Below are positions 50,772-62,820 of a stretch of DNA of 64,000 nucleotides, in pieces. Below the pieces are notes generated by a model. It saw nothing but the letters and a program-made list of their open reading frames with translations. It did not search any database and was not told the origin of the DNA. A program made the position numbers and the translations under genes. Position 1 is the first letter of the stretch. Every line of letters starts with the position of its first letter. This DNA comes from Sphingobacteriales bacterium 44-15 (GTDB lineage: Bacteria; Bacteroidota; Bacteroidia; Chitinophagales; Chitinophagaceae). The DNA is taken from positions 62,001 to 126,000 of the forward strand of contig MKWG01000024.1 in the NCBI GenBank assembly GCA_001899685.1, read 5' to 3'.

Positions 50772-51347
50772 TTAAAGCGCCCAGGCTCTGTCGCCTTTTT
50801 TGTAATCAATGCATCCTTCATACTTACCAGGTACGGGCACATACCTCAATGCCTGTGTAGCGCCGGGCTCTGAAGTGAAATAACCGAGCAGTGTCAGCTC
50901 TTTCATCATCCTGAAGTAATGTTTGGGATCATCGCTTTTTGCAGTCTTTGCATATTCTTTTGCTTCCTTATCTATATCTGTCAGCAGCGCTTTTCTCTGA
51001 TCCGGGCTGGAATCCATGAAGGACTTACTATTTTTTTGCCGGCTGGCTTCATCCAGCTTTTGCATACCCGCCTTAAAGATTTTCTGATCATCTTCGGTAT
51101 AGCAATCATTGACCATTACGGTCATAAATGCGCCTACCTTAGCAGCTTTGGCGCCCGGCGTATTGGTAGCGGGTATAATGGTTTCGGCTACTTCATCTAA
51201 GTAAGCGATATCATCAGGAGCGAATGCCGGGTTTGTATCGGATGTTTTTTTGTCGGATGGAGTACATCCTTCCAGGAATGCATTTGCCCCAACTACAGTG
51301 CCGCCCAGTATAAGGGCAACTCTTGACAAGGCATCGCGTCTGTTCAT
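50772..51347 (-). CDS. Gluconate 2-dehydrogenase subunit 3 family protein
   Basis: A 191-residue periplasmic small subunit of a membrane flavoprotein dehydrogenase. It has a twin-Arg-like start (MNRRDALSRVALILGG) and a possible lipobox LEGC at Cys28, so it may be Tat-exported and lipid-anchored. The family signature is the DIAYLDEVAETIIPATNTPGAKAAKVG helix. It follows the GMC subunit by 36 bp; the pair corresponds to the catalytic and helper subunits of FAD-linked sugar dehydrogenases. Confidence 0.92.
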   Translation of the reverse strand: MNRRDALSRVALILGGTVVGANAFLEGCTPSDKKTSDTNPAFAPDDIAYLDEVAETIIPATNTPGAKAAKVGAFMTVMVNDCYTEDDQKIFKAGMQKLDEASRQKNSKSFMDSSPDQRKALLTDIDKEAKEYAKTAKSDDPKHYFRMMKELTLLGYFTSEPGATQALRYVPVPGKYEGCIDYKKGDRAWAL

Positions 51348-51383
51348 ATATTATACGTTTAATAATATTATAAAATAGTTGTA

Positions 51384-53159
51384 TCAGAGATTCATTTTTT
51401 TCAATTCACTTACGGCATGGTCTGCAGCTCTTGCCGTGAAGGCCATATAGGTAAGCGATGGATTCACACAGGAAGCGGAAGTCATGAATGCACCGTCGGT
51501 CACAAATACATTCGGGGCATCCCACACCTGGTTGAACTTATTCAGCACGGATGTTTTGGGGTCATGTCCCATACGCGCTGTGCCCATTTCATGTATGCCT
51601 CTTCCCAGGGTGCCATCGCCATCGCGGCCCTGCACATTTTTTACACCCGCTGCTTCCAGCATTTCAATGGCATCATTCAGCATATCCTTGCGCATCTTCT
51701 TTTCATTGTCTTTATATTCCACATCCATTGCAAGCACAGGCAGTCCCCATTTATCCAAACGTTGTTTGCCATTTTTGTCAGGCACAGGGCGCATGCCAAG
51801 ATCTTTGCCGGTAACAGGATCTTTGAAGAGTTCCTGCTTATCACCGTACGTGTTTTTATCAATATATACCCTGTTCTCATGATAGGGCAATGTTTCTCCA
51901 AAACCACCGATGCCCATTGTCCAGCTTCCTGGTTCTACAAGAGCATCTTTCAACTCTGCGCCGATGGATATTTCTTCTGCAGAGCGGCTATAGCCACCCC
52001 TGCTGCCCCCGCCCTGGTAGCCGAAGCCGCGCAGGTAATCTCGTTTATCGCCAAAGAAATTGCGATAGCGCGGAATATAAACGCCATTGGCGCGCCGCCC
52101 GAAGTAATATTTATCTTCATATCCTTCCACCAGTCCGCCTGCTCCTACGCCGAGGTGATGGTCCATCACGTTGTGCCCAAGCTCGCCACTGCTGCTGCCA
52201 AGCCCTTCCGGCCATATATCCGTTGCAGAGTTCATCAGCACCCATGCGCTGTTCAGTGCAGAGGCATTCAGGAAAATGATCTTAGCGTTATAGGTATATG
52301 TCTTATTATTTTCACCATCCAGCACTTCCACGCCGGTGGCTCTTTTCTTGTCTTTGTCGTATAATATTTTGGTAACAATGCTCCAGGGACGCAGAGTAAG
52401 ATTGCCTGTCTTCATTGCAGCGGGGAGCGTGGAAGATTGCGTGCTGAAATATGCACCATAGGGGCATCCCAGCCAGCATTTGTTGCGAAACTGGCAGTTT
52501 GATCTTCCCTGGTCTGCAAAGGGAACCGTGATATTGGCTGTGCGGCCAATGATCATTTTCCTTTTCCCGCTGAATTTGTCTTTTATCCTTGCAGCCACAT
52601 CTTTTTCCACGCAGGTCATTTCCATGGGAGGGAGAAATTGCCCGTCTGGTAATTCAGCAAGCCCTTCCTTGGAGCCGCTGATGCCGGCAAAACGCTCTAC
52701 ATGATCATACCAGGGCGCTATTTCTTTATAGCGTACCGGCCAGTCAATAGCGATGCCTTCTTTGGCATTGGCTTCAAAATCCAGGTCGCTCCAGCGGTAG
52801 CTTTGCCTGCCCCACATCAGCGAACGGCCGCCTACATGATAACCGCGAAACCAGTCGAAACGTTTTATTTCGGTATAAGGGCTGTCCTTGTCGCTGCACC
52901 AGTAATCCAGGTTGGTTTCATTAAGGGGATAATCCCGTTTCAGCACGGGATAATCATTGATCATTTGCTGGGTTCTGCCGCCGCGGTGTGGAAATTCCCA
53001 GGGCGCTTTATTCGCATTTACGTAGTCTTTTACATGTTCAATATTGCGCCCCCGCTCCAGCATCAGCACCTTAAGTCCTTTTTCAGTAAGCTCTTTGGCA
53101 GCCCATCCACCACTGATCCCGGAACCAATAACTATGGCATCGTAAACGTTGTCAGGCAT
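51384..53159 (-). CDS. GMC-family FAD-dependent sugar dehydrogenase, large subunit
   Basis: A 591-residue flavoprotein oxidising alcohol groups of sugars. FAD fold IVIGSGISGGWAAKE (9-23) and the later FLNASALNSAWVLMNSAT and GTARMGHDPKTS are GMC features; the C-terminal domain includes FVTDGAFMTSASCVNPSLTYM, where the His/Asn pair is expected. No signal peptide is visible; like related enzymes, it is probably exported as a complex with the Tat-targeted subunit 3. By family precedent it could be a 3-dehydrogenase of glucosides. Confidence 0.92.
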   Translation of the reverse strand: MPDNVYDAIVIGSGISGGWAAKELTEKGLKVLMLERGRNIEHVKDYVNANKAPWEFPHRGGRTQQMINDYPVLKRDYPLNETNLDYWCSDKDSPYTEIKRFDWFRGYHVGGRSLMWGRQSYRWSDLDFEANAKEGIAIDWPVRYKEIAPWYDHVERFAGISGSKEGLAELPDGQFLPPMEMTCVEKDVAARIKDKFSGKRKMIIGRTANITVPFADQGRSNCQFRNKCWLGCPYGAYFSTQSSTLPAAMKTGNLTLRPWSIVTKILYDKDKKRATGVEVLDGENNKTYTYNAKIIFLNASALNSAWVLMNSATDIWPEGLGSSSGELGHNVMDHHLGVGAGGLVEGYEDKYYFGRRANGVYIPRYRNFFGDKRDYLRGFGYQGGGSRGGYSRSAEEISIGAELKDALVEPGSWTMGIGGFGETLPYHENRVYIDKNTYGDKQELFKDPVTGKDLGMRPVPDKNGKQRLDKWGLPVLAMDVEYKDNEKKMRKDMLNDAIEMLEAAGVKNVQGRDGDGTLGRGIHEMGTARMGHDPKTSVLNKFNQVWDAPNVFVTDGAFMTSASCVNPSLTYMAFTARAADHAVSELKKMNL

Positions 53160-53213
53160 TTTGTTTTTTTTGAGTTAAGTAATAATATAACAATGTATGT
53201 ATTGCAGATCATA

Positions 53214-54119
53214 CTATACATCACAGATCCTCACGCCGCTTTCAAGCGACGCTATCTGGCCTTTTGCATCTTTGGGCGTAGGAATAAATTCCTGTGCAAC
53301 ATACCCTTTAAAACCAAGGTCTGTTATGGCTTTCATAATAGCCGGGTAATACAGCTCCTGTGATTCATTTATTTCGCGGCGGCCCGGAACGCCACCGGTG
53401 TGATAGTGAGATATATACTGGTGATTGTCCCTGATAGTCCTGATCACATCTCCTTCATCTATCTGCATGTGATAAATATCATACAATAGTTTGAAGTTTT
53501 CAGAGCCCAGCCGTTTTGCCAGCTCTACACCCCAGGCTGTTTTATCGCATTGATAATCCTTGTGGTCAATTTTGCTGTTCAGTAATTCCATTACCAGCGT
53601 AACCTTATGCTTTTCGGCGATCCCTATCACTTTTCTTAACCCGTCAACACAGTTCTTCCAGCCTGTTTCATCATCGAGATTCCTGCGGCTGCCGCTGAAG
53701 CATATCAGTTGCTTATAACCTGCCTGCGCCACCAGGGGGAGCATTTCCGAGTAATTTTTGATGAGCTGCGGGTGAAATTCAGTATGGTTCCAGCCATCGG
53801 TGAGGTTGATCTCAGCACCATTGCACATGCTTGAATACAGCCCGTATTTCTGAAGTGTGGGCCACTCCTTTGGGCCTACAAGATCAATTGCCGTCATACC
53901 GAGGCCTTTAACGGCTGCGCAAAATTCCTCAAGGGGGATACTGCCATAGCACCACCGGCAAACCGAATGATTAATATTTCCTTTCATGATATAGGGGGTT
54001 TCTTTCTTTTTGCGGGGAGCCGCTGATGCAACAACAGTAGAGAGCGAGCCAAGGGTCACAGCGCTAAGGGCAATATGTTTTATGGCACGCCTGCGCGGAT
54101 AATCTGATGAAGTGGACAT
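53214..54119 (-). CDS. Hydroxypyruvate-isomerase-like TIM-barrel protein, Tat-exported
   Basis: A 301-residue sugar phosphate isomerase/epimerase-type (AP endonuclease 2 fold) protein. PRRRAIKHIALSAVTLGSL is a twin-Arg signal (about 8-32), so it acts in the periplasm. Metal-binding acidic/His residues appear in VMELLNSKIDHKDY, LLYDIYHMQIDEGD, ISHYHTGGVPGR and VAQEFIPT. It is first in the minus-strand operon (isomerase-GMC-subunit 3) and divergent from the Gfo/Idh gene. Periplasmic location fits handling of a keto-sugar. Confidence 0.88.
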   Translation of the reverse strand: MSTSSDYPRRRAIKHIALSAVTLGSLSTVVASAAPRKKKETPYIMKGNINHSVCRWCYGSIPLEEFCAAVKGLGMTAIDLVGPKEWPTLQKYGLYSSMCNGAEINLTDGWNHTEFHPQLIKNYSEMLPLVAQAGYKQLICFSGSRRNLDDETGWKNCVDGLRKVIGIAEKHKVTLVMELLNSKIDHKDYQCDKTAWGVELAKRLGSENFKLLYDIYHMQIDEGDVIRTIRDNHQYISHYHTGGVPGRREINESQELYYPAIMKAITDLGFKGYVAQEFIPTPKDAKGQIASLESGVRICDV

Positions 54120-54210
54120 AGTCTGTTATAAAGAAAAGTCAAGGTAATAAATGTTTTATAATTCTGTCTTTTTTAATTGTTAATCGTTCACGCAGTTTTA
54201 CCGAAATACA

Positions 54211-54270
54211 ACAAAGCCACGAATGCACAAATAAATATATTAAAATACATTCCTGCATTCGTGGCTTTGT
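54211..54270. repeat. 17-bp perfect inverted repeat in the divergent promoter region
   Basis: ACAAAGCCACGAATGCA (54211-54227) is mirrored at 54254-54270 with a 26-nt AT-rich loop. The gap 54120-54382 contains no gene. It may be an operator or a member of the CCACGAAT-type interspersed repeats. Confidence 0.75.
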
Positions 54271-54382
54271 CTTCCTTTGTTGTACAGAATACACAAATGA
54301 AAAAAAACAAGTTGGCAGTATATGTAAATGTTTTATTTTTAAACCCGCTTCTGATTTTTAAACTACGCTAATATTTTTTTTC

Positions 54383-55540
54383 ATGAACAGAAAACTTAGA
54401 ATGGGCATGATCGGCGGAGGCAAAGACGCCTTTATCGGAGCCGTTCATCGTATCGCTGCCAATATGGATGGGCTTATTGAGCTGTCTGCCGGTGCATTGA
54501 GCATACGGCCGGATATTGCAACAGACTCAGGGAAAACGCTATTCCTTCCCGATGACCGCATCTATCTCAATTACGAGGAGATGCTGGAAAAAGAAAGCAA
54601 AATGCCTGCCGACAAACGTCTTGATTTTGTTACTATAGTGACCCCCAACTTCGCTCACTTTGCTCCGGCCATGCTGGCGCTTGAGAAAGGCTTTCATGTA
54701 GTGATTGAGAAACCCATGACCTTCACGCTTGATGAAGCAAAACAGCTCCAGAAGAAAGTAGAAGAAACCGGGTTATTGCTTTGTCTTACCCATACCTATT
54801 CAGGTTATCCGATGGTAAAGCAGGCAAAACAGATGATCAAGGAGGGTGCATTGGGCAAAGTCAGAAAAATATGGGTGGAATACCCGCAGGGCTGGCTGAC
54901 AAAGCTTACAGAAAGAGAAGGTAACGCACAGGCTGCCTGGAGAACCGATCCTTCCAAATCGGGAAAAAGTGGTTGTATGGGTGATATAGGCACCCACGCC
55001 GCACATCTTGCTGAATATATTTCAGGGCTGAAGATCACAAAGCTTTGTGCCGACCTGAATATCATGGTGGAAGGACGCCCGCTGGATGATGACGGCAACG
55101 TGCTTCTCCGGTTTGATAATGGCGCTGCCGGTGTGCTGATGGCTTCACAGGTAGCAGCAGGTGAAGAAAATGCCTTAAGGATCAGGATATATGGCGAGAA
55201 AGGCGGAATGGAATGGGCGCAGCAGGAACCCAACAGCTTATTGCTCAAATGGCTTGATCAGCCTATGCAGGTGTATCGCACCGGCACCGGTTACCTCGGG
55301 AGTTTTGCAAAACACAATGCCAGGGTTCCCGCCGGTCATCCCGAAGGATACCTTGAGGCGTTCGGGAATATCTACCGCAACTTTGCCCTCAGCTTATCCG
55401 CCAAAATCAATAATGAAAAAGCTACCCCCGAAATATCAGACTTCCCCACAGTGCAGGAAGGTGTAAGGGGAATGGCTTTTATTGATAATGTGGTGAAGAG
55501 CAGCAACAGTGATGAAAAGTGGACTGAATTTGAGGTGTAA
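54383..55540 (+). CDS. Gfo/Idh/MocA family oxidoreductase
   Basis: A 385-residue NAD(P)-dependent sugar dehydrogenase. Rossmann start MGMIGGGKDAFIGAVHR (8-24), the EKP motif in HVVIEKPMTFTLDEAK, and a conserved GDIGTHAAHLAEYISG (His likely catalytic) mark the family. No signal peptide is seen, so it is cytosolic, acting after uptake of the product. It heads the plus-strand half of the divergent cluster. Confidence 0.93.
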   Translation: MNRKLRMGMIGGGKDAFIGAVHRIAANMDGLIELSAGALSIRPDIATDSGKTLFLPDDRIYLNYEEMLEKESKMPADKRLDFVTIVTPNFAHFAPAMLALEKGFHVVIEKPMTFTLDEAKQLQKKVEETGLLLCLTHTYSGYPMVKQAKQMIKEGALGKVRKIWVEYPQGWLTKLTEREGNAQAAWRTDPSKSGKSGCMGDIGTHAAHLAEYISGLKITKLCADLNIMVEGRPLDDDGNVLLRFDNGAAGVLMASQVAAGEENALRIRIYGEKGGMEWAQQEPNSLLLKWLDQPMQVYRTGTGYLGSFAKHNARVPAGHPEGYLEAFGNIYRNFALSLSAKINNEKATPEISDFPTVQEGVRGMAFIDNVVKSSNSDEKWTEFEV

Positions 55541-55549
55541 GGAAGAAAG

Positions 55550-55640
55550 TGATGAGGGGTAAGTGATAAGGGGTAAGTGAATACACAGGGATGTATTTTA
55601 AATCCAAACGCTCTTCCTTATACCTTACACCCTATCCCTC
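55550..55640. repeat. Intergenic hairpin repeat, GGGGTAAG subtype, copy 12
   Basis: GAGGGGTAAGTGATAAGGGGTAAG on the left faces TTATACCTTACACCCTATCCCTC on the right. It sits between two plus-strand genes of the sugar cluster. Confidence 0.6.
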
Positions 55641-55670
55641 TATTTAAATAACAATTTCAATTTTATTGTC

Positions 55671-56726
55671 ATGACAAATGTCCAGGGACCTGGAATTTTT
55701 CTTGCGCAGTTTTTAGGAGACAGCGCTCCGTTCAACAGTTTGAAATCTATTTGCGGCTGGGCTGCTTCACTGGGTTATGCAGGTGTGCAAATACCCACAT
55801 GGGACAGCCGCGTGATTGACATACAAAAAGCTGCAGAAAGTAAAACCTATGCCGATGAAATAAAAGGTATAGTAAATGAAGCCGGTCTGCAGATCACAGA
55901 GCTTGCTTCCCATATTATCGGGCAGTTAGTGGCTGTGCACCCGGCATACGATGTTCTTTTTGACGGGTTTGCCCCGGAGGCTTACCGTGGCAATCCGGCC
56001 GCCCGCACCGAATGGGCTGTGCAGCATCTTAAGTATGCTGCTAAGGCTTCCCGCAACCTGGGTCTGAACGCCCATGGTACTTTCAGCGGCTCCCTGCTTT
56101 GGCATACTGTATATCCATGGCCACAGCGCCCGGCAGGACTGGTGGAAACAGGATTTACCGAATTGGCAAAAAGATGGCTTCCCATACTCAACGTATTTGA
56201 TGAGCATGGTATAGATCTTTGCTATGAGATACATCCCGGCGAAGACCTGCATGATGGGATAACTTACGAGATGTTCCTTGAAAAAGTAAATAATCACAGC
56301 AGGGCCTGCCTGCTCTATGATCCCAGTCATTTTGTGCTGCAATGCCTCAACTACCTGGAATATATTGATAATTACCACGAGCGCATCCGCATGTTCCATG
56401 TAAAAGATGCCGAATTTAATCCTACCGGCAAGCAGGGAGTATATGGCGGTTACCAGGGCTGGGTCGAACGCGCAGGCCGTTTCCGTTCACTGGGCGACGG
56501 ACAGGTTGATTTCAAATCTATCTTCAGTAAGATGGCAGCATACAACTACAAAGGCTGGGCAGTGCTGGAATGGGAATGTGCACTCAAGCACCCTGAAGCC
56601 GGCGCTGCAGAAGGCGCTCCGTTCATCAAAGATCATATTATAAGAGTGACGGAAAGAGCATTCGATGACTTTGCGGGCACAGGCAGCGATGAAAAATTTA
56701 ATCGTAAAGTTTTAGGGCTTGAGTAG
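55671..56726 (+). CDS. Sugar phosphate isomerase/epimerase family protein
   Basis: A 351-residue TIM-barrel metal enzyme without a signal peptide. Residues that should bind the divalent metal appear in CYEIHPGEDLHDG (Glu/His), LLYDPSHFVLQ (Asp/His), MFHVKDAEFN (His/Asp) and VLEWECALKHP (Glu). GNLGLNAHGTFSG-like NLGLNAHGTFSGSLLWH is the earlier strand. It is 130 bp after the Gfo/Idh gene. Members of this pair (isomerase plus Gfo/Idh) commonly degrade 3-keto or inositol-type sugars in the cytosol. Confidence 0.9.
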   Translation: MTNVQGPGIFLAQFLGDSAPFNSLKSICGWAASLGYAGVQIPTWDSRVIDIQKAAESKTYADEIKGIVNEAGLQITELASHIIGQLVAVHPAYDVLFDGFAPEAYRGNPAARTEWAVQHLKYAAKASRNLGLNAHGTFSGSLLWHTVYPWPQRPAGLVETGFTELAKRWLPILNVFDEHGIDLCYEIHPGEDLHDGITYEMFLEKVNNHSRACLLYDPSHFVLQCLNYLEYIDNYHERIRMFHVKDAEFNPTGKQGVYGGYQGWVERAGRFRSLGDGQVDFKSIFSKMAAYNYKGWAVLEWECALKHPEAGAAEGAPFIKDHIIRVTERAFDDFAGTGSDEKFNRKVLGLE

Positions 56727-56785
56727 TTTTCTTTAGATATTTGTGCCCTGTTTTATTGAGAAAAAATTAAAATTGATAAATAAGC

Positions 56786-57217
56786 ATGAAAAAAATTACA
56801 TCGGCAGTTCTTTTGTTAGCCTTTTGTTATGCCTGCGGTAGCGCACCGACAGAAGAAAAAAAACCTATAAGTTCGAGTGTGAATCCACAAATTGGCGGCG
56901 ATGCACAAAAGCCGGCCGCTGCAACAGATAACGGGGCAGCCGCTACTACTGCAGCAGCAGCTCCGGCGGCTAAGGACGGGAAGGCATTATTAGAAGGTTC
57001 TGACTGCCGTGCCTGCCATCATGATAAGGATAAGCTGGTGGGACCTGCTTATGCAGAAGTTGCCAAGAAGTATAAAGAAAAGGATATCCCTGCGCTGGCT
57101 AAAAAGGTAATGGAAGGCGGATCAGGTGTTTGGGGGCAGATCCCTATGTCGCCTCATCCTACTTTATCTGAGCCGGATGCTGAAGCGATGGTAAAATATA
57201 TCCTGACAATAAAATAA
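56786..57217 (+). CDS. Periplasmic c-type cytochrome, lipoprotein-like
   Basis: A 143-residue electron carrier. N-terminal signal with likely acylated Cys17 (YAC), then an Ala/Thr/Pro-rich linker (about 20-62), then a class I cytochrome c domain with CRACH (74-78) and probable axial Met121 in GQIPMSPHP. It closely resembles cytochrome c551/552. In this cluster it is the likely electron acceptor for the GMC dehydrogenase. The next gene starts 5 bp after its stop. Confidence 0.92.
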   Translation: MKKITSAVLLLAFCYACGSAPTEEKKPISSSVNPQIGGDAQKPAAATDNGAAATTAAAAPAAKDGKALLEGSDCRACHHDKDKLVGPAYAEVAKKYKEKDIPALAKKVMEGGSGVWGQIPMSPHPTLSEPDAEAMVKYILTIK

Positions 57218-57222
57218 CAATA

Positions 57223-57951
57223 ATGAAGATTGCATCAGTGCTTGCTGTGACCAGTATGTTTCTTGTAGTGTCGGCAATGCCATATCAGGCAGAAGCCCAG
57301 AAGAAAGACAATGTTTTAACGCAAAAAGAAAAAAATGCCGGCTGGGTTTTATTATTTGACGGTACATCTACCGATGGCTGGCATTCCTTTAATAAGACCA
57401 GTCTGGGCTCAGCCTGGGAAGCAGATAACGGAACGCTGCATTTGACAAAGCATGAAGGTGAAAGTGCAGGTGGCGATGCTACTACCGCAGGCGAATATGG
57501 AGATTTTGATTTGAAGCTCGACTGGAAAATTTCGCAAAACGGTAATAGCGGGGTATTATTCCTGGTACAGGAAGGTCCTGAGCATGAACGCTCTTACCAT
57601 ACCGGTCCCGAAATGCAGGTGTTGGACAATAACGGACATCCCGATGCCAAGATAATCAAGCATCGCGCGGGCGACCTGTATGACCTTATTACCAGCAAGC
57701 CAGAAACCGTTAAGCCTGCCGGAGAATGGAACAGTATAGAAATTAAGTTGCAGAAAGGTAAGCTGGAGCTGTGGCAGAATGGCGTAAAAGTAGTGTCTAC
57801 CACATTATGGGATGCCAACTGGGATGCCCTGGTAGCCGGAAGCAAATTTAAAAATATGCCAGGCTTTGCCAAGTCGAAGAAAGGACATATCTCGCTCCAG
57901 GATCATGGAAATGAAGTATGGTATAAAAATATTAAGATCAGAAAGCTGTAA
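57223..57951 (+). CDS. DUF1080 protein (3-keto-disaccharide hydrolase type)
   Basis: A 242-residue secreted jelly-roll protein. A signal peptide (1-25, ending YQAEAQ) precedes the DUF1080 domain: GWVLLFDGTSTDGWHSF, FDLKLDWKISQNGNSGVLF, GPEMQVLDNNGHPD, and GHISLQDHGNEVWYKNIKI. The family is now annotated as 3-keto-disaccharide (or 3-keto-glycoside) hydrolase. With the GMC dehydrogenase and cytochrome alongside, hydrolysis of a 3-oxidised glycoside in the periplasm is a good prediction. A terminator follows at 57975-58007. Confidence 0.93.
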   Translation: MKIASVLAVTSMFLVVSAMPYQAEAQKKDNVLTQKEKNAGWVLLFDGTSTDGWHSFNKTSLGSAWEADNGTLHLTKHEGESAGGDATTAGEYGDFDLKLDWKISQNGNSGVLFLVQEGPEHERSYHTGPEMQVLDNNGHPDAKIIKHRAGDLYDLITSKPETVKPAGEWNSIEIKLQKGKLELWQNGVKVVSTTLWDANWDALVAGSKFKNMPGFAKSKKGHISLQDHGNEVWYKNIKIRKL

Positions 57952-57974: not shown

Positions 57975-58007
57975 AAAGCCGGTTGAGTAATTGCTTAACC
58001 GGCTTTT
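57975..58007 (+). terminator. Intrinsic terminator after the DUF1080 gene
   Basis: AAAGCCGGTTGAG pairs with CTTAACCGGCTTT (one G-U), 6-nt loop, ending in TTTT. It closes the plus-strand half of the cluster. Confidence 0.85.
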
Positions 58008-58018
58008 GCCATATTATC

Positions 58019-58096
58019 GTGAAAGGAGAGATGTGAGACGTGAAAGCATCTCTCATATTTGTCGTTTCACATTTGTCGTCTCACGTTTGTCGTTTC
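58019..58096. repeat. Intergenic hairpin repeat, copy 13
   Basis: GAAAGGAGAGATGTGAGACGTGAAAG followed by CATCTCTCATATTTGTCGTTTCAC and TCTCACGTTTGTCG; GAGAGATG/CATCTCTC pair. Confidence 0.6.
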
Positions 58097-58260
58097 CCCC
58101 CTCTACCATTAACGGGGTATTGATATCACAAAACAGATACTGTATATTTATATCCTCAAACCTCCCGCCGGTAATCCCCCCTGACTTTTTCCGTATTCCC
58201 ATGTTGCAGAACAGACCATTACTGGTCAGCACGTATTCGCCATTTCTAAATTGTATTATC

Positions 58261-59718
58261 ATGAAACATAAGTTGTCTCCACTTGTTAAGGACTATCTCT
58301 ACATTCTTAAAAAAGCTGCGGCAAGCAACAACGGGCAGCGGTGTATGATAGGACCAAGCCCCGGGCTTAAGGATAAGCTCAAAGCTGATTTAAACCAGTT
58401 GAAAAGAGATCTCGGCAGCTCCGTGCTGGGTAATCTGATCAGGCCGCTTGGCAAAACGAAGCTTGGTTTCAACGACGGTTTGCTCCAGCCGGGTAATGTA
58501 TTTGCTTTGGGAACTTCTGCCCAGGGCATACGAACCCGCAGCGCGGAAAGAGCGCCGCTGCGTGGTGATCTGAAGGTAGCGGTAATACTTGTTGACTTCA
58601 GTGATAAGCCTATGAGCCAGACAAAGAAAAGGTTCCAGGATCTTTTTTTCAGCCAGGGAGTTATACCTACAGGAAGCGTGAAAGAATATTATACAGAGGT
58701 AACAGGCGGACTTGTAAATATCACAGGGCAGGTGGCGGGTCCCTACAGAATGCCCAAAAAATTAAGCCAGTACGCGCACGGCGACAGTGGTACCGGGAAT
58801 GCCTCTCCCAATGCAAGAACACTTGCGGAAGATGCTGCTAAAGCAGCAAATGCTTATGTGGATTTTAGCACTTATGATAATAACAACGATGGATATGTTG
58901 ATGCTTTTGTGGTAATACATGCAGGACCGGGGGCTGAAGTGACGGGCAGCCGCAACGATATCTGGAGCCATAAATGGGTATTGCCTAAAGTATACAATGC
59001 AGATGGCACACATATTTATGCCTATTTAACGGTGCCTGAAGATTGTGAACTGGGGGTTTGTGCTCACGAACTGGGGCACCTGCTGTTTGGTTTCCCCGAT
59101 CTGTACGACGTGGATTATACGAGTGAAGGAATCGGCAACTGGTGCCTGATGTCCGGGGGTAGCTGGAATAATGACGGGGCAACACCGGCTCATCCCTGCG
59201 CGTGGTGTAAAATGCAGCAAAACTGGGTTACTACTGTTAATCAAAGCAATAATAAGGCTAATGTTGTTATTGATGGTGTGCAGGCGGGGAAAACAATATA
59301 CCGTCTCTGGAAGGATGGCGGACCGGGCAATGAATATTTTCTCGTTGAAAACCGCACCCAAAAGAATTATGATAAATTTCTCCCGGGTGAAGGATTGCTG
59401 GTATATCATATTGATGATGCAATAGATGATAACAGCAATGAGCTGCATTATAAAGTGGCCCTTGTGCAGGCGGATGGCAGGCAGGACCTGGAGAAAGGAA
59501 AAAATTCCGGCGATGCCGGTGATGTATGGCCCGGTACTTCAAAGAGGAAAACATTCAGCAGGACAACAAAACCCAACAGTAAGAGCTATGGAGGACTTGA
59601 TACCAGGGTAGCGCTCCGGAAAATAAAATTTGCAAAGGGAAAAGTTACGGCGGATATATATGTAAAAACAGGCGCAGCAACTGTTCCCGGTAAAAAGAAT
59701 AGTGCCAAAAAGAAATAA
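58261..59718 (+). CDS. M6 family metalloprotease (immune inhibitor A-like)
   Basis: A 485-residue zinc protease. The motif AHELGHLLFGFPDLYD contains HELGH at 269-273 with the third ligand region downstream; GIGNWCLMSGGSWN continues the M6 signature. KVAVILVDFSDKPMSQTKK is the conserved lead-in at about 100-120. No signal peptide or sorting tail is apparent, so export is unclear. ATG 58261 is preferred: the open frame upstream (to 57991) is unrelated sequence overlapping a terminator and a repeat. Confidence 0.88.
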   Translation: MKHKLSPLVKDYLYILKKAAASNNGQRCMIGPSPGLKDKLKADLNQLKRDLGSSVLGNLIRPLGKTKLGFNDGLLQPGNVFALGTSAQGIRTRSAERAPLRGDLKVAVILVDFSDKPMSQTKKRFQDLFFSQGVIPTGSVKEYYTEVTGGLVNITGQVAGPYRMPKKLSQYAHGDSGTGNASPNARTLAEDAAKAANAYVDFSTYDNNNDGYVDAFVVIHAGPGAEVTGSRNDIWSHKWVLPKVYNADGTHIYAYLTVPEDCELGVCAHELGHLLFGFPDLYDVDYTSEGIGNWCLMSGGSWNNDGATPAHPCAWCKMQQNWVTTVNQSNNKANVVIDGVQAGKTIYRLWKDGGPGNEYFLVENRTQKNYDKFLPGEGLLVYHIDDAIDDNSNELHYKVALVQADGRQDLEKGKNSGDAGDVWPGTSKRKTFSRTTKPNSKSYGGLDTRVALRKIKFAKGKVTADIYVKTGAATVPGKKNSAKKK

Positions 59719-60504: not shown

Positions 60505-61137
60505 ATGAAGAGAATGTTTCTAACCCTGAGCGGCTGCCTCTGGCTGCTGGCGGGGAATTTGTCAGCCCAAACTAATGCAGAAAACCTCAGTTTTCCACTG
60601 AAATCTCCCCGTTTCTCAGTACTTGCAGAAGGCCATTTTAATGCTACAGACTACCCGGGACGATATGGGGTGGGCGCTGCAGCTAAGCTTATGTTTACGG
60701 CTCACCGTAATAAAGATGTTTTTAATGAATATGTGATCACTTTCAGGGCTACCCATAGCGCTCCCACCGACGGAGGTTTTTTCAAAGGTTTTGACGGTGG
60801 CAATTATGATAATATCAGCGCTTTGCTGTTAACGGGCGGCTACCGTTTCAATTTTGGAGTTCCCCGCTACATGATACATGGCTTTAGTGATGATGTGGGA
60901 GGATGGTTTATTGAAGTAAATGTAGGTGCAGCTTATATACACAAGGATCGCACGCTTGGCCCTGCCATAGCGCCTGCTGTCGGGTATGCCATAACCCGTA
61001 AACTTGATCTCGTAGGTACATTTATCGGGGAATGGGCGCTTAAATCTTCTTCTAATAAAGAAGCCTATCCCGCTCCTACGTTTACAAGAAACACCAATCT
61101 TTTGATCAGCAGCATCGGGCTGCAGTACAATTTTTAA
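60505..61137 (+). CDS. Hypothetical outer-membrane beta-barrel protein
   Basis: A 210-residue protein with a signal peptide (1-21, ending LSAQ) and amphipathic beta strands ending in a C-terminal aromatic (LQYNF), the usual end of an outer-membrane barrel. LLLTGGYRFNFGVPRYMIHG and YAITRKLDLVGTFIGEW are typical barrel segments of the OmpW/porin-like kind, but the family cannot be named from sequence alone. Confidence 0.75.
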   Translation: MKRMFLTLSGCLWLLAGNLSAQTNAENLSFPLKSPRFSVLAEGHFNATDYPGRYGVGAAAKLMFTAHRNKDVFNEYVITFRATHSAPTDGGFFKGFDGGNYDNISALLLTGGYRFNFGVPRYMIHGFSDDVGGWFIEVNVGAAYIHKDRTLGPAIAPAVGYAITRKLDLVGTFIGEWALKSSSNKEAYPAPTFTRNTNLLISSIGLQYNF

Positions 61138-61227: not shown

Positions 61228-62820
61228 TCAGGACGCTTTTTGTAAAACTTTTTCTTTCGGATGCGGCAGTGCTTTTCTGCTGCTTAGCTGATGCTTTTCG
61301 TGGATAACAGCGCTGAGGGATTTGCCGTATACCTTGCTTTCCACCCAGGATATTACATCAAGGTATGCAAAGGCCCTTGTTTCAAAACGGTTCTTTTCAA
61401 GATGCTTTATCTTGTCTAAGAACTTCTCAAGCTCGGGCTTTAGCTGGCGGGGAGAAAGGCTGAAAGATCTTTTCAGGAAACGGAACATCTCTTCTTCCAC
61501 CACCGTCAGGTTTTTCATCCTGGCCATAAAACGATATACAGACTTGGTAAGAGACTCCATGATATCGAAGTTGCCTAATTCATAATGCGCCATCAGGTGC
61601 AGCAGCCGGGCATAACACTGCAGATCGTTCCTGAGGTCCTGCGACCCGTTAATGATACGCTGAAGGTAATCAATAGAAGTGCCGTATTGTTCCGCGCCAA
61701 AATAAAGCGTGGCTATTTTGTAGTTAAATACAAGTATCCTGTGCTTATCAACATATAATTCATATTCCTTCAGTCTCGCTTCTATTTCGGGAACGATCGC
61801 AAGACCTTCTTTAAAGGTGCCGGACATCAGGTGCCAGTTGAGCCTGGCCACATTGATATAGATGGAAGTCTGGATCCTGAAATTATCATGATGATTGGCT
61901 ACAGGTGTTTTTGAAAAAGCTTCAAACTTATGCAGGGTTCCCTGGAACTCCCTGAAGTTCCTCAGGTCAAAATGAGCGTTCAGGAGATTATGCATACCTT
62001 TTACAAAATGCCCGGTCTCTACTGCTACCATCGAAGGGTTTTCTTCAAAAAGATTGATCCACTTTACACTGTAGCGGTAATACATGAGGAAATCCTGGCG
62101 GATAAATGCGTACCAGCAATAGCTTTGGTATAAATACAGGTTTTCATAAAACCCCTGGATGGCACTCCTGTCGGTAGGGATATAGCTTTTAAAAAATGCT
62201 CTTATATCTTTTTCGTCATGCGCATTTCTTGCGTGTCCAAACTTCACATACCACCTGTATAAAAGCAATGCAAGATTGGACAGACGGGTAACCCTGTCTA
62301 TATGACTGCTTATTTCAATAGCTTCTTCTGTTAAGTGCTCTGTTTTTTCAAGCGTGCTTCTTGTGATATGCAGGGTTTCTATTTTTTTCTCCAGGGAGAT
62401 CACCTGGGCCAGGAAGTTGAATTTCTGATTGGTTTTTGCGAGTTCCTTCGCTTTCTCCAATATCCTGAGACTTTGTATTTTAAGTCCTTTATTATATAGC
62501 AGCCGGGCGTGGTCAAGATGCTCACTGAGCTGAAGATCTGTGTTTTCTGTAGTCTTTAACAGGCGGAGGCTCGCCAGGAGCTGCTTGTAAAGATGGTTCT
62601 TTAAATTGGATAATTGTGGCTTGGTAACGCCTTTCAGCTTCTTAAGGAGCTGTTTTTCATCGTATTCCGGTAATTTATCCAACGCATCGAAGAGCTGAAT
62701 GATCTTCAGATCTTCTTTGCCTGAGCTTCTTTTGATGTATAGTTTAAAATGCCTTTTTTCCGATTTCTCTAATGAGCAAATCAACTGAAATAAAGCATCT
62801 GCAGAACTGTTGGACGTCAT
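61228..62820 (-). CDS. Hypothetical 530-residue helical protein (TPR-like)
   Basis: A large, all-helical cytosolic protein. Repeating helical pairs (HLDHARLLYNKGLKIQSLRI, EKAKELAKTNQKF, then longer stretches around IDYLQRIINGSQDLRND) look TPR-like, but no canonical TPR or catalytic motif is visible. Similar-looking proteins recur in Bacteroidota, but I cannot assign a function. Start ATG 62820 is supported by a strong AGGAG 10 nt upstream, one of the few good Shine-Dalgarno sites in this window, and a -7 box TAAATTTG at 62868-62861. Confidence 0.8.
   Translation of the reverse strand: MTSNSSADALFQLICSLEKSEKRHFKLYIKRSSGKEDLKIIQLFDALDKLPEYDEKQLLKKLKGVTKPQLSNLKNHLYKQLLASLRLLKTTENTDLQLSEHLDHARLLYNKGLKIQSLRILEKAKELAKTNQKFNFLAQVISLEKKIETLHITRSTLEKTEHLTEEAIEISSHIDRVTRLSNLALLLYRWYVKFGHARNAHDEKDIRAFFKSYIPTDRSAIQGFYENLYLYQSYCWYAFIRQDFLMYYRYSVKWINLFEENPSMVAVETGHFVKGMHNLLNAHFDLRNFREFQGTLHKFEAFSKTPVANHHDNFRIQTSIYINVARLNWHLMSGTFKEGLAIVPEIEARLKEYELYVDKHRILVFNYKIATLYFGAEQYGTSIDYLQRIINGSQDLRNDLQCYARLLHLMAHYELGNFDIMESLTKSVYRFMARMKNLTVVEEEMFRFLKRSFSLSPRQLKPELEKFLDKIKHLEKNRFETRAFAYLDVISWVESKVYGKSLSAVIHEKHQLSSRKALPHPKEKVLQKAS

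Follow-up and report, generated by a model that had tools for sequence, protein, structure and literature searches.

Introduction

Degradation of glycosides through 3-keto intermediates has been described for several bacteria. In Agrobacterium tumefaciens, AtOGE converts a 3-keto-glucoside to 2-hydroxy-3-keto-D-glucal, and oxidation, elimination, hydration and reduction have been predicted for the operon, with preliminary evidence for its hydratase (HYD) and Gfo oxidoreductase; a Rhizobium homologue of its dehydrogenase GlycDH was produced with a partner carrying a twin-arginine translocation (Tat) signal and with flavin adenine dinucleotide (FAD) (PMC10628242). The same four reactions are carried out on levoglucosan by lgdA/B1/B2/C of Bacillus smithii (PMC7676230). 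In Proteobacteria and Bacteroidetes, LacABC-type genes are found close to DUF1080 genes, and lactose and salicin phenotypes are reported for lacABC of Caulobacter and for a dehydrogenase of Pedobacter (PMC9007349); GMC glycoside 3-oxidases are the topic of PMC10646112. In the present study, we analyzed a cluster of seven genes (P0001 to P0007; Table 1) at positions 50772-57951 of a 64,000-nt stretch from Sphingobacteriales bacterium 44-15 (contig 24, bases 62001-126000; genome 6.0 Mb). This whole stretch is called the window, and positions are counted from its first letter.

The cluster resembles the A. tumefaciens GlycDH/AtOGE/AtHYD/Gfo operon in that a single locus encodes a dehydrogenase, HYD, a Gfo oxidoreductase and two TIM barrels, but it has no recognizable AtOGE and differs in its DUF1080 and cytochrome c genes, its exported epimerase-like TIM barrel and its divergent operons (PMC10628242). 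Oxidation, elimination, hydration and reduction by four separate enzymes, as proposed here, are shared with lgdA/B1/B2/C, whose oxidation step is NAD-dependent, unlike that of the GMC/cytochrome complex of the window (PMC7676230). A LacABC-type dehydrogenase and DUF1080 are encoded together as in the LacABC clusters, Bacteroidetes included, whereas the excerpted LacABC account mentions no hydratase, proposes hydrolysis and calls the fate of 3-ketogalactose unknown (PMC9007349). This type of pathway is known from the literature, and our main addition is a corrected role for some of the cluster genes, by which one conserved Bacteroidota block appears to join the respiratory LacABC-type dehydrogenase and DUF1080 with the elimination/hydration pathway known from Agrobacterium and Bacillus. 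Should this be correct, a testable route would lead from oxidation in the periplasm to glucose, and the exported TIM barrel would stand out as a conserved protein.

Putative glycal hydratase and the proposed pathway

The observation that carries our interpretation is the sequence kinship of P0005. Residues 2-350 of its 351 residues align at 576 bits with PDB entry 8RO4, named 2-hydroxy-3-keto-glucal hydratase, with 67.9% identity (237 of 349 aligned positions), and the next-best PDB structure reaches 147 bits. We take 8RO4 to be the HYD of A. tumefaciens. The pattern C-Y-E-x-H, containing E-x-H, is present in all 53 HYD relatives of at least 600 bits, and P0005 is the sole HYD match in its own genome. 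A previous sequence-only reading of the window had called this gene (55671-56726) a second isomerase; by its sequence, P0005 is a 2-hydroxy-3-keto-glucal hydratase, and therefore the glycosidic bond is probably broken by elimination and not by plain hydrolysis. The outline of that reading can be retained, while its plain hydrolysis is corrected, because of the HYD identity, to a likely route of elimination, hydration and reduction.

We consider it likely that the cluster is a four-step glycoside-utilization locus working across the inner membrane by oxidation, elimination, hydration and reduction. In the scheme that we infer, including its C3 regiochemistry, the elimination by DUF1080, the import and all enzyme activities, the GMC dehydrogenase P0002, exported by the Tat subunit 3 (P0001), would oxidize a glycoside at C3 in the periplasm, and electrons would pass from FAD through a 3Fe-4S cluster to the monoheme cytochrome c and then to the respiratory chain. 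The 3-keto-glycoside would be eliminated in the same compartment, most likely by the DUF1080 protein P0007, to 2-hydroxy-3-keto-glycal and the aglycone or second sugar, and the exported TIM barrel P0003 may epimerize or isomerize keto-sugars there. As the third step, a permease encoded elsewhere in the genome would import the glycal or 3-keto-sugar, and in the cytoplasm P0005 would hydrate the glycal to 3-keto-glucose, which the Gfo/Idh protein P0004 would reduce to glucose.

The gene for P0004 adjoins that for HYD, and seven relatives at 594-692 bits occupy the same position in their blocks; its best PDB relative is an unnamed oxidoreductase (3v5n, 385 bits). Its proposed reductase role follows from the place beside HYD and from analogy with the published operons. 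Export signals were judged by eye from the translations, and neither P0004 nor P0005 shows one, both beginning directly with the fold, so that HYD and Gfo/Idh probably work in the cytoplasm, on an intermediate brought in by import. A HYD match was found in 327 plasmid records, three of which were inspected. HYD and Gfo are adjacent beside a sugar ABC transporter in two alphaproteobacterial plasmids, in which no GMC is annotated within 9 kb of the pair, the feature table being incomplete. The Hymenobacter volaticus plasmid record annotates the same gene set as the cluster in one row, with HYD and Gfo beside an additional nucleoside permease. Such HYD-Gfo pairs beside transporters fit a cytoplasmic module fed by import.

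Dehydrogenase complex

Pfam finds both the N- and C-terminal GMC domains and the PF13618 partner in one operon, and P0002 aligns with the GMC subunits of fructose (104 bits) and glucose (92 bits) dehydrogenases. Its C222, C228 and C232 fall at the 3Fe-4S ligand positions when aligned to the large subunit of fructose dehydrogenase; the corresponding ligands of the Burkholderia cepacia glucose dehydrogenase (BcGDH) are Cys212/218/222 (PMC6719666). The cofactor motif C-x5-C-x3-CP is conserved in 121 of 123 GMC homologues. H523 and N566 are the candidate catalytic pair, although loose patterns written around these two presumed catalytic residues match 99 (His) and 41 (Asn) of the 123, and the pair is therefore not established family-wide.

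P0002 has no export signal of its own by eye, while twin arginines are visible near the N-terminus of P0001, as well as of P0003. All 64 subunit 3 relatives of at least 100 bits have RR among the N-terminal 60 residues of the open frame, and a loose lipobox pattern is found in 42 of them. A Tat-like P0001 with a signal-less P0002 looks, by sequence, as expected of a hitchhiker pair. The FAD glucose/fructose dehydrogenase complexes (PDB 7w2j, 6a2u) likewise combine a hitchhiker subunit with a GMC subunit that has the 3Fe-4S cysteines, whereas Cys213 of BcGDH, which makes an inter-subunit disulfide, is Gln in P0002 (PMC6719666). Unlike these complexes, the window cluster has a single-heme cytochrome gene in place of a triheme subunit: a triheme cytochrome of the BcGDH type was not found, P0006 having one CxxCH, and exactly one is present in all 54 relatives of at least 100 bits. 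P0006 had been described as a lipid-linked cytochrome c; the cytochrome part is confirmed, and the lipid link is uncertain because the candidate lipobox C-Y-A-C is non-canonical. A loose lipobox pattern occurs in 33 of the 54 relatives.

Some loci of other genomes have unusual GMC arrangements: tandem runs with up to five GMC genes per single subunit 3 gene are seen in L036 (8867-18620) and L152, and in L129 the GMC matches are spread over several frames and appear broken.

Conservation of the gene block

Gene content and synteny could be read directly from other genomes. Among 119 sampled genomes of the order, homologues of GMC (E <=1e-60), HYD (E <=1e-80) and P0003 (E <=1e-60) were found in 24, 22 and 20 genomes, respectively. 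Every one of the 22 genomes with HYD also has GMC (hypergeometric probability 5e-22, shared ancestry ignored), as do 19 of the 20 P0003 genomes (2e-16, likewise ignoring shared ancestry). The surroundings of GMC sites were examined in 40 stretches of at most 20 kb, five being sites of GMC paralogues in the own genome; 22 of the 73 GMC match rows lie outside every examined stretch, all at <=50% identity. Of the 10 other genomes listed for the same family, 7 have the divergent block, with TIM barrel, GMC and subunit 3 opposed to Gfo, HYD, cytochrome and DUF1080 (L035, L036, L037, L038, L041, L042 and L045), and the arrangement is therefore far from chance. In L041 the stretch ends without reaching a DUF1080 gene, and the two halves of the block are separated by a second GMC set. 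One same-family genome (G034) has no homologue of GMC, HYD or P0003 at the thresholds used. These genome counts and the synteny support the conserved co-occurrence of a GMC/subunit-3/cytochrome dehydrogenase with a DUF1080 partner that had been anticipated.

A search of genome contigs with a profile of the P0003 alignment gave 582 relatives, the best 80 of which were used; full flanks are available for 53 of the 80 loci and are missing for 27, and partners were counted for both sets with score cut-offs of our own choice. The nearest named relatives, among the matches listed, belong to Chitinophagaceae and other Bacteroidota. Among the 53 full-flank loci, GMC and subunit 3 are present at 47, HYD at 44, Gfo at 44, cytochrome at 46 and a close DUF1080 at 33 (46 when weak matches are included); all seven genes occur at 28 and P0003 stands alone at 3. 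The corresponding numbers for all 80 loci are GMC 67, subunit 3 63 (always with GMC), HYD 55, Gfo 60, cytochrome 54, close DUF1080 41 (55 with weak matches), all seven 35 and P0003 alone 8. Examining the neighbourhood across Bacteroidota, as the sequence-only reading had recommended, thus recovers the same gene set in either divergent or collinear order, the collinear one being usual in Pedobacter, Flavobacterium, Hymenobacter and Mucilaginibacter and the divergent one in Chitinophagaceae-type loci. Amid these otherwise Bacteroidota loci, the titles of L123, L130 and L154 name Thalassobius, Williamsia and Alteromonadaceae, indicating binning errors or transfer.

Recurrent additional genes were grouped at 64 HYD loci, window included, and each group was labelled from one or two Pfam-scanned examples. 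A permease of either PF03825 or MFS_1 type recurs at 58 of the 64 loci, a third, exported TIM barrel that starts with twin arginines at 55, and a second, exported Gfo/Idh protein of PF19051 type at 40; L035:5928-7424, L079:6494-7900 and L035:7505-8428 are examples of the latter two groups. The own genome has homologues of the PF03825-type permease on C29 (49%) and C40 (41%), an MFS homologue on C45 (45%), and TIM-barrel homologues at up to 41%.

Exported TIM barrel

P0003 has E178, D214, H240 and E277 invariant in both of its alignments (A1, 14 sequences; A2, 57 sequences), and among the best 80 of the 582 relatives, all 80 have RR among the N-terminal 60 residues of the open frame and 74 have RRx-hydrophobic. 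Its predicted model has a mean predicted local distance difference test score (pLDDT) of 87.4, the signal region being low. With this model, Foldseek places ketohexose 3-epimerases, 3ngf (AP endonuclease family 2) and 1k77 nearest; Escherichia coli YcjR, a 3-keto-glucoside 4-epimerase (PDB 6wn6), comes at rank 14 with a template modeling (TM) score of 0.67-0.68, a fold E-value of 2.3e-13 and 19% identity, and many epimerases score alike. Unlike P0003, which has a Tat-like signal, YcjR is cytoplasmic. By sequence, YcjR matches P0003 at 21.6 bits. The C-glycoside deglycosidase chains 8un2 and 7drd rank slightly below YcjR.

In 78 of the same 80 relatives, the sequence of the first presumed metal strand is MEL[LF]N (68 MELLNSK, 7 MELFNSK and 3 MELLNSR; two are outside the pattern), and in these 78 no His stands two residues after the first presumed metal-ligand Glu. 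AtOGE, for comparison, has His132 and the catalytic His134 (PMC10628242). Because the His of AtOGE/HYD type is absent, and because of the fold matches, we weakly favour a function as epimerase or isomerase. P0003 has 19 PDB sequence matches, and none of these is named an eliminase. Assignments as a hydroxypyruvate isomerase proper (TIGR03234, 89.1 against a cut-off of 353.45 bits) and as a D-psicose 3-epimerase proper (NF051856, 64.4 against 300 bits) were rejected.

As a speculative and rather doubtful proposal, P0003 might be a periplasmic 3-keto-hexoside 4-epimerase, namely a Tat-exported analogue of YcjR converting 3-keto-galactosides to 3-keto-glucosides. If this were true, one glucose-specific chain of lyase, HYD and Gfo could consume lactose and other galactosides, which would explain what becomes of 3-ketogalactose, a question raised by the LacABC account (PMC9007349), and a membrane-split pathway importing 3-keto-glycal would be defined.

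Cleavage step and alternative explanations

P0007 scores 169 bits with PF06439 against a curated cut-off of 26.8, has a signal peptide by eye, and has PDB relatives including 4jqt (167 bits) and 8rr2 (132.6 bits); on the evidence of its family and context, it is most likely the protein that cleaves by elimination. Two papers of 2024, in Nature and Angewandte Chemie, reportedly describe the broad pathway and a lyase activity of DUF1080. The route originally suggested for the window made DUF1080 a true 3-keto-glycoside hydrolase, with two isomerases and the Gfo/Idh protein merely recycling the 3-keto-sugar. PF06439 indeed carries the name 3-keto-disaccharide hydrolase, and a periplasmic 3'-ketolactose hydrolase of the DUF1080 family has been proposed (PMC9007349), but direct hydrolysis would leave the glycal hydratase recognized by sequence between Gfo and cytochrome without a substrate, and we regard this route as quite unlikely. 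The eliminating lyase might instead be P0003, as an analogue of AtOGE, with another or an anomer-specific role for DUF1080. The presence of GMC and subunit 3 at 47 of the 53 full-flank P0003 loci, the retrieval of the C-glycoside deglycosidase chains by Foldseek and the invariant E/D/H/E residues of a metal-type TIM barrel would suit such a lyase; the missing His after the first ligand Glu, in contrast to His132/His134 of AtOGE and to E-x-H in 53 of 53 HYD relatives, and the absence of an eliminase name among the PDB sequence matches speak against it and make it unlikely. That GMC oxidizes another position or a non-glycoside polyol, the locus serving inositol or cyclitol catabolism with IolE/IolG-like HYD and Gfo proteins, is highly improbable: the NCBIfam matches that suggest it, to myo-inosose-2 dehydratase IolE (65.7 against 290) and inositol 2-dehydrogenase (56.5 against 355), are far under the cut-offs, and P0005 scores 576 bits with 8RO4 against 44 with the IolE structure 3cny.

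Several observations weigh against the four-step pathway that we prefer. HYD lies far from GMC in two genomes of the sample (G020 and G107), and in 11 of the 12 other-family HYD genomes it is on a different contig from every listed GMC match, G016 (L053) being the sole exception. The recurrent permease, third TIM barrel and exported Gfo/Idh groups have no member in window positions 42001-64000, and the cluster may be incomplete or dependent on distant genes. P0004 reaches no NCBIfam cut-off, its best match being levoglucosan dehydrogenase (NF052479, 120.5 against 650), and one of the two alphaproteobacterial HYD-Gfo pairs adjoins xylA and xylB, so that this module may serve another sugar. An AtOGE-type lyase was not recognized in the cluster, the AtOGE sequence itself not having been compared. 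Because the own genome has 26 PF06439 stretches, 25 of them over the cut-off, the presence of DUF1080 alone says little. In Pedobacter GW460, none of 10 DUF1080 genes had a lactose phenotype, for which the authors suggest redundancy (PMC9007349).

Cluster layout and flanking sequences

The ORF (open reading frame) list and the Pfam scan give seven ORFs in two divergent operons (Table 1), in agreement with the coordinates, strands and families reported earlier. ORFs that run antisense to the GMC and HYD genes were rejected as real genes; judged from their coordinates, they group as shadows of the conserved genes.

Table 1. Genes and repeat of the cluster (window positions)
Feature	Position	Strand	Remarks
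P0001, subunit 3 / hitchhiker subunit	50772..51347	-	PF13618 145.5 bits; Tat-like start MNRR; possible lipoprotein, LEGC
P0002, GMC flavoprotein dehydrogenase	51384..53159	-	PF00732/PF05199 66.2/72.7 bits
P0003, TIM barrel, Tat-like exported, sugar epimerase/isomerase-like	53214..54119	-	PF01261 80.8 bits
Inverted repeat, 22 nt, divergent intergenic region	54211..54270
P0004, Gfo/Idh/MocA oxidoreductase, proposed 3-keto-glucose reductase	54383..55540	+	C-terminal 101.4, NAD-binding 59.4 bits
P0005, 2-hydroxy-3-keto-glucal hydratase (HYD) by sequence	55671..56726	+	PF01261 123.4 bits; 8RO4 match
P0006, monoheme cytochrome c, signal peptide, candidate electron acceptor	56786..57217	+	Pfam 35.7 bits; CRACH at 74-78
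P0007, DUF1080 protein, signal peptide by eye, proposed 3-keto-glycoside lyase	57223..57951	+	PF06439 169 bits

Among the DUF1080 stretches elsewhere in the genome, pairs within one frame are seen on C33, C17, C40 and C26, and one on C40 ends 26 bases before the match of the nucleoside-permease (PF03825-type) homologue.

The neighbours named by the sequence-only reading, DUF5009 (40.4 bits), GH3 (BglX equivalog, 993.8 against a cut-off of 666), GH43 and GDSL/SGNH, are present. It had been suggested that they may feed the cluster, a view that the conservation count does not support: at 63 HYD loci, each with at most 10-20 kb of context, homologues of GH43, SGNH, GH3 and DUF5009 were found at 0, 1, 1 and 0 loci, respectively. 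HAD and M6 homologues were found at none of these loci, nor were homologues of either unnamed ORF (60505-61137 and 61228-62820), and all these genes were rejected as pathway parts. The M6 metalloprotease gene (57991-59718; TIGR03296, 258.9 bits) lies downstream of DUF1080 on the same strand, and the TTG listed as its start probably lies too far upstream.

The intergenic hairpin, by eye about TACAACAAAGCCACGAATGCACGAAT ... ATTCGTGCATTCGTGGCTTTGTTGTA, is a copy of a genome-wide dispersed hairpin resembling repetitive extragenic palindromic (REP) elements. Its core motif is found at 65 places of the genome with <=1 mismatch, whereas the reversed control gives 1 place, and as a dispersed repeat it was ruled out as a promoter-specific regulatory element. 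Some of the 20 repeat stretches examined (L155-L174) are composite.

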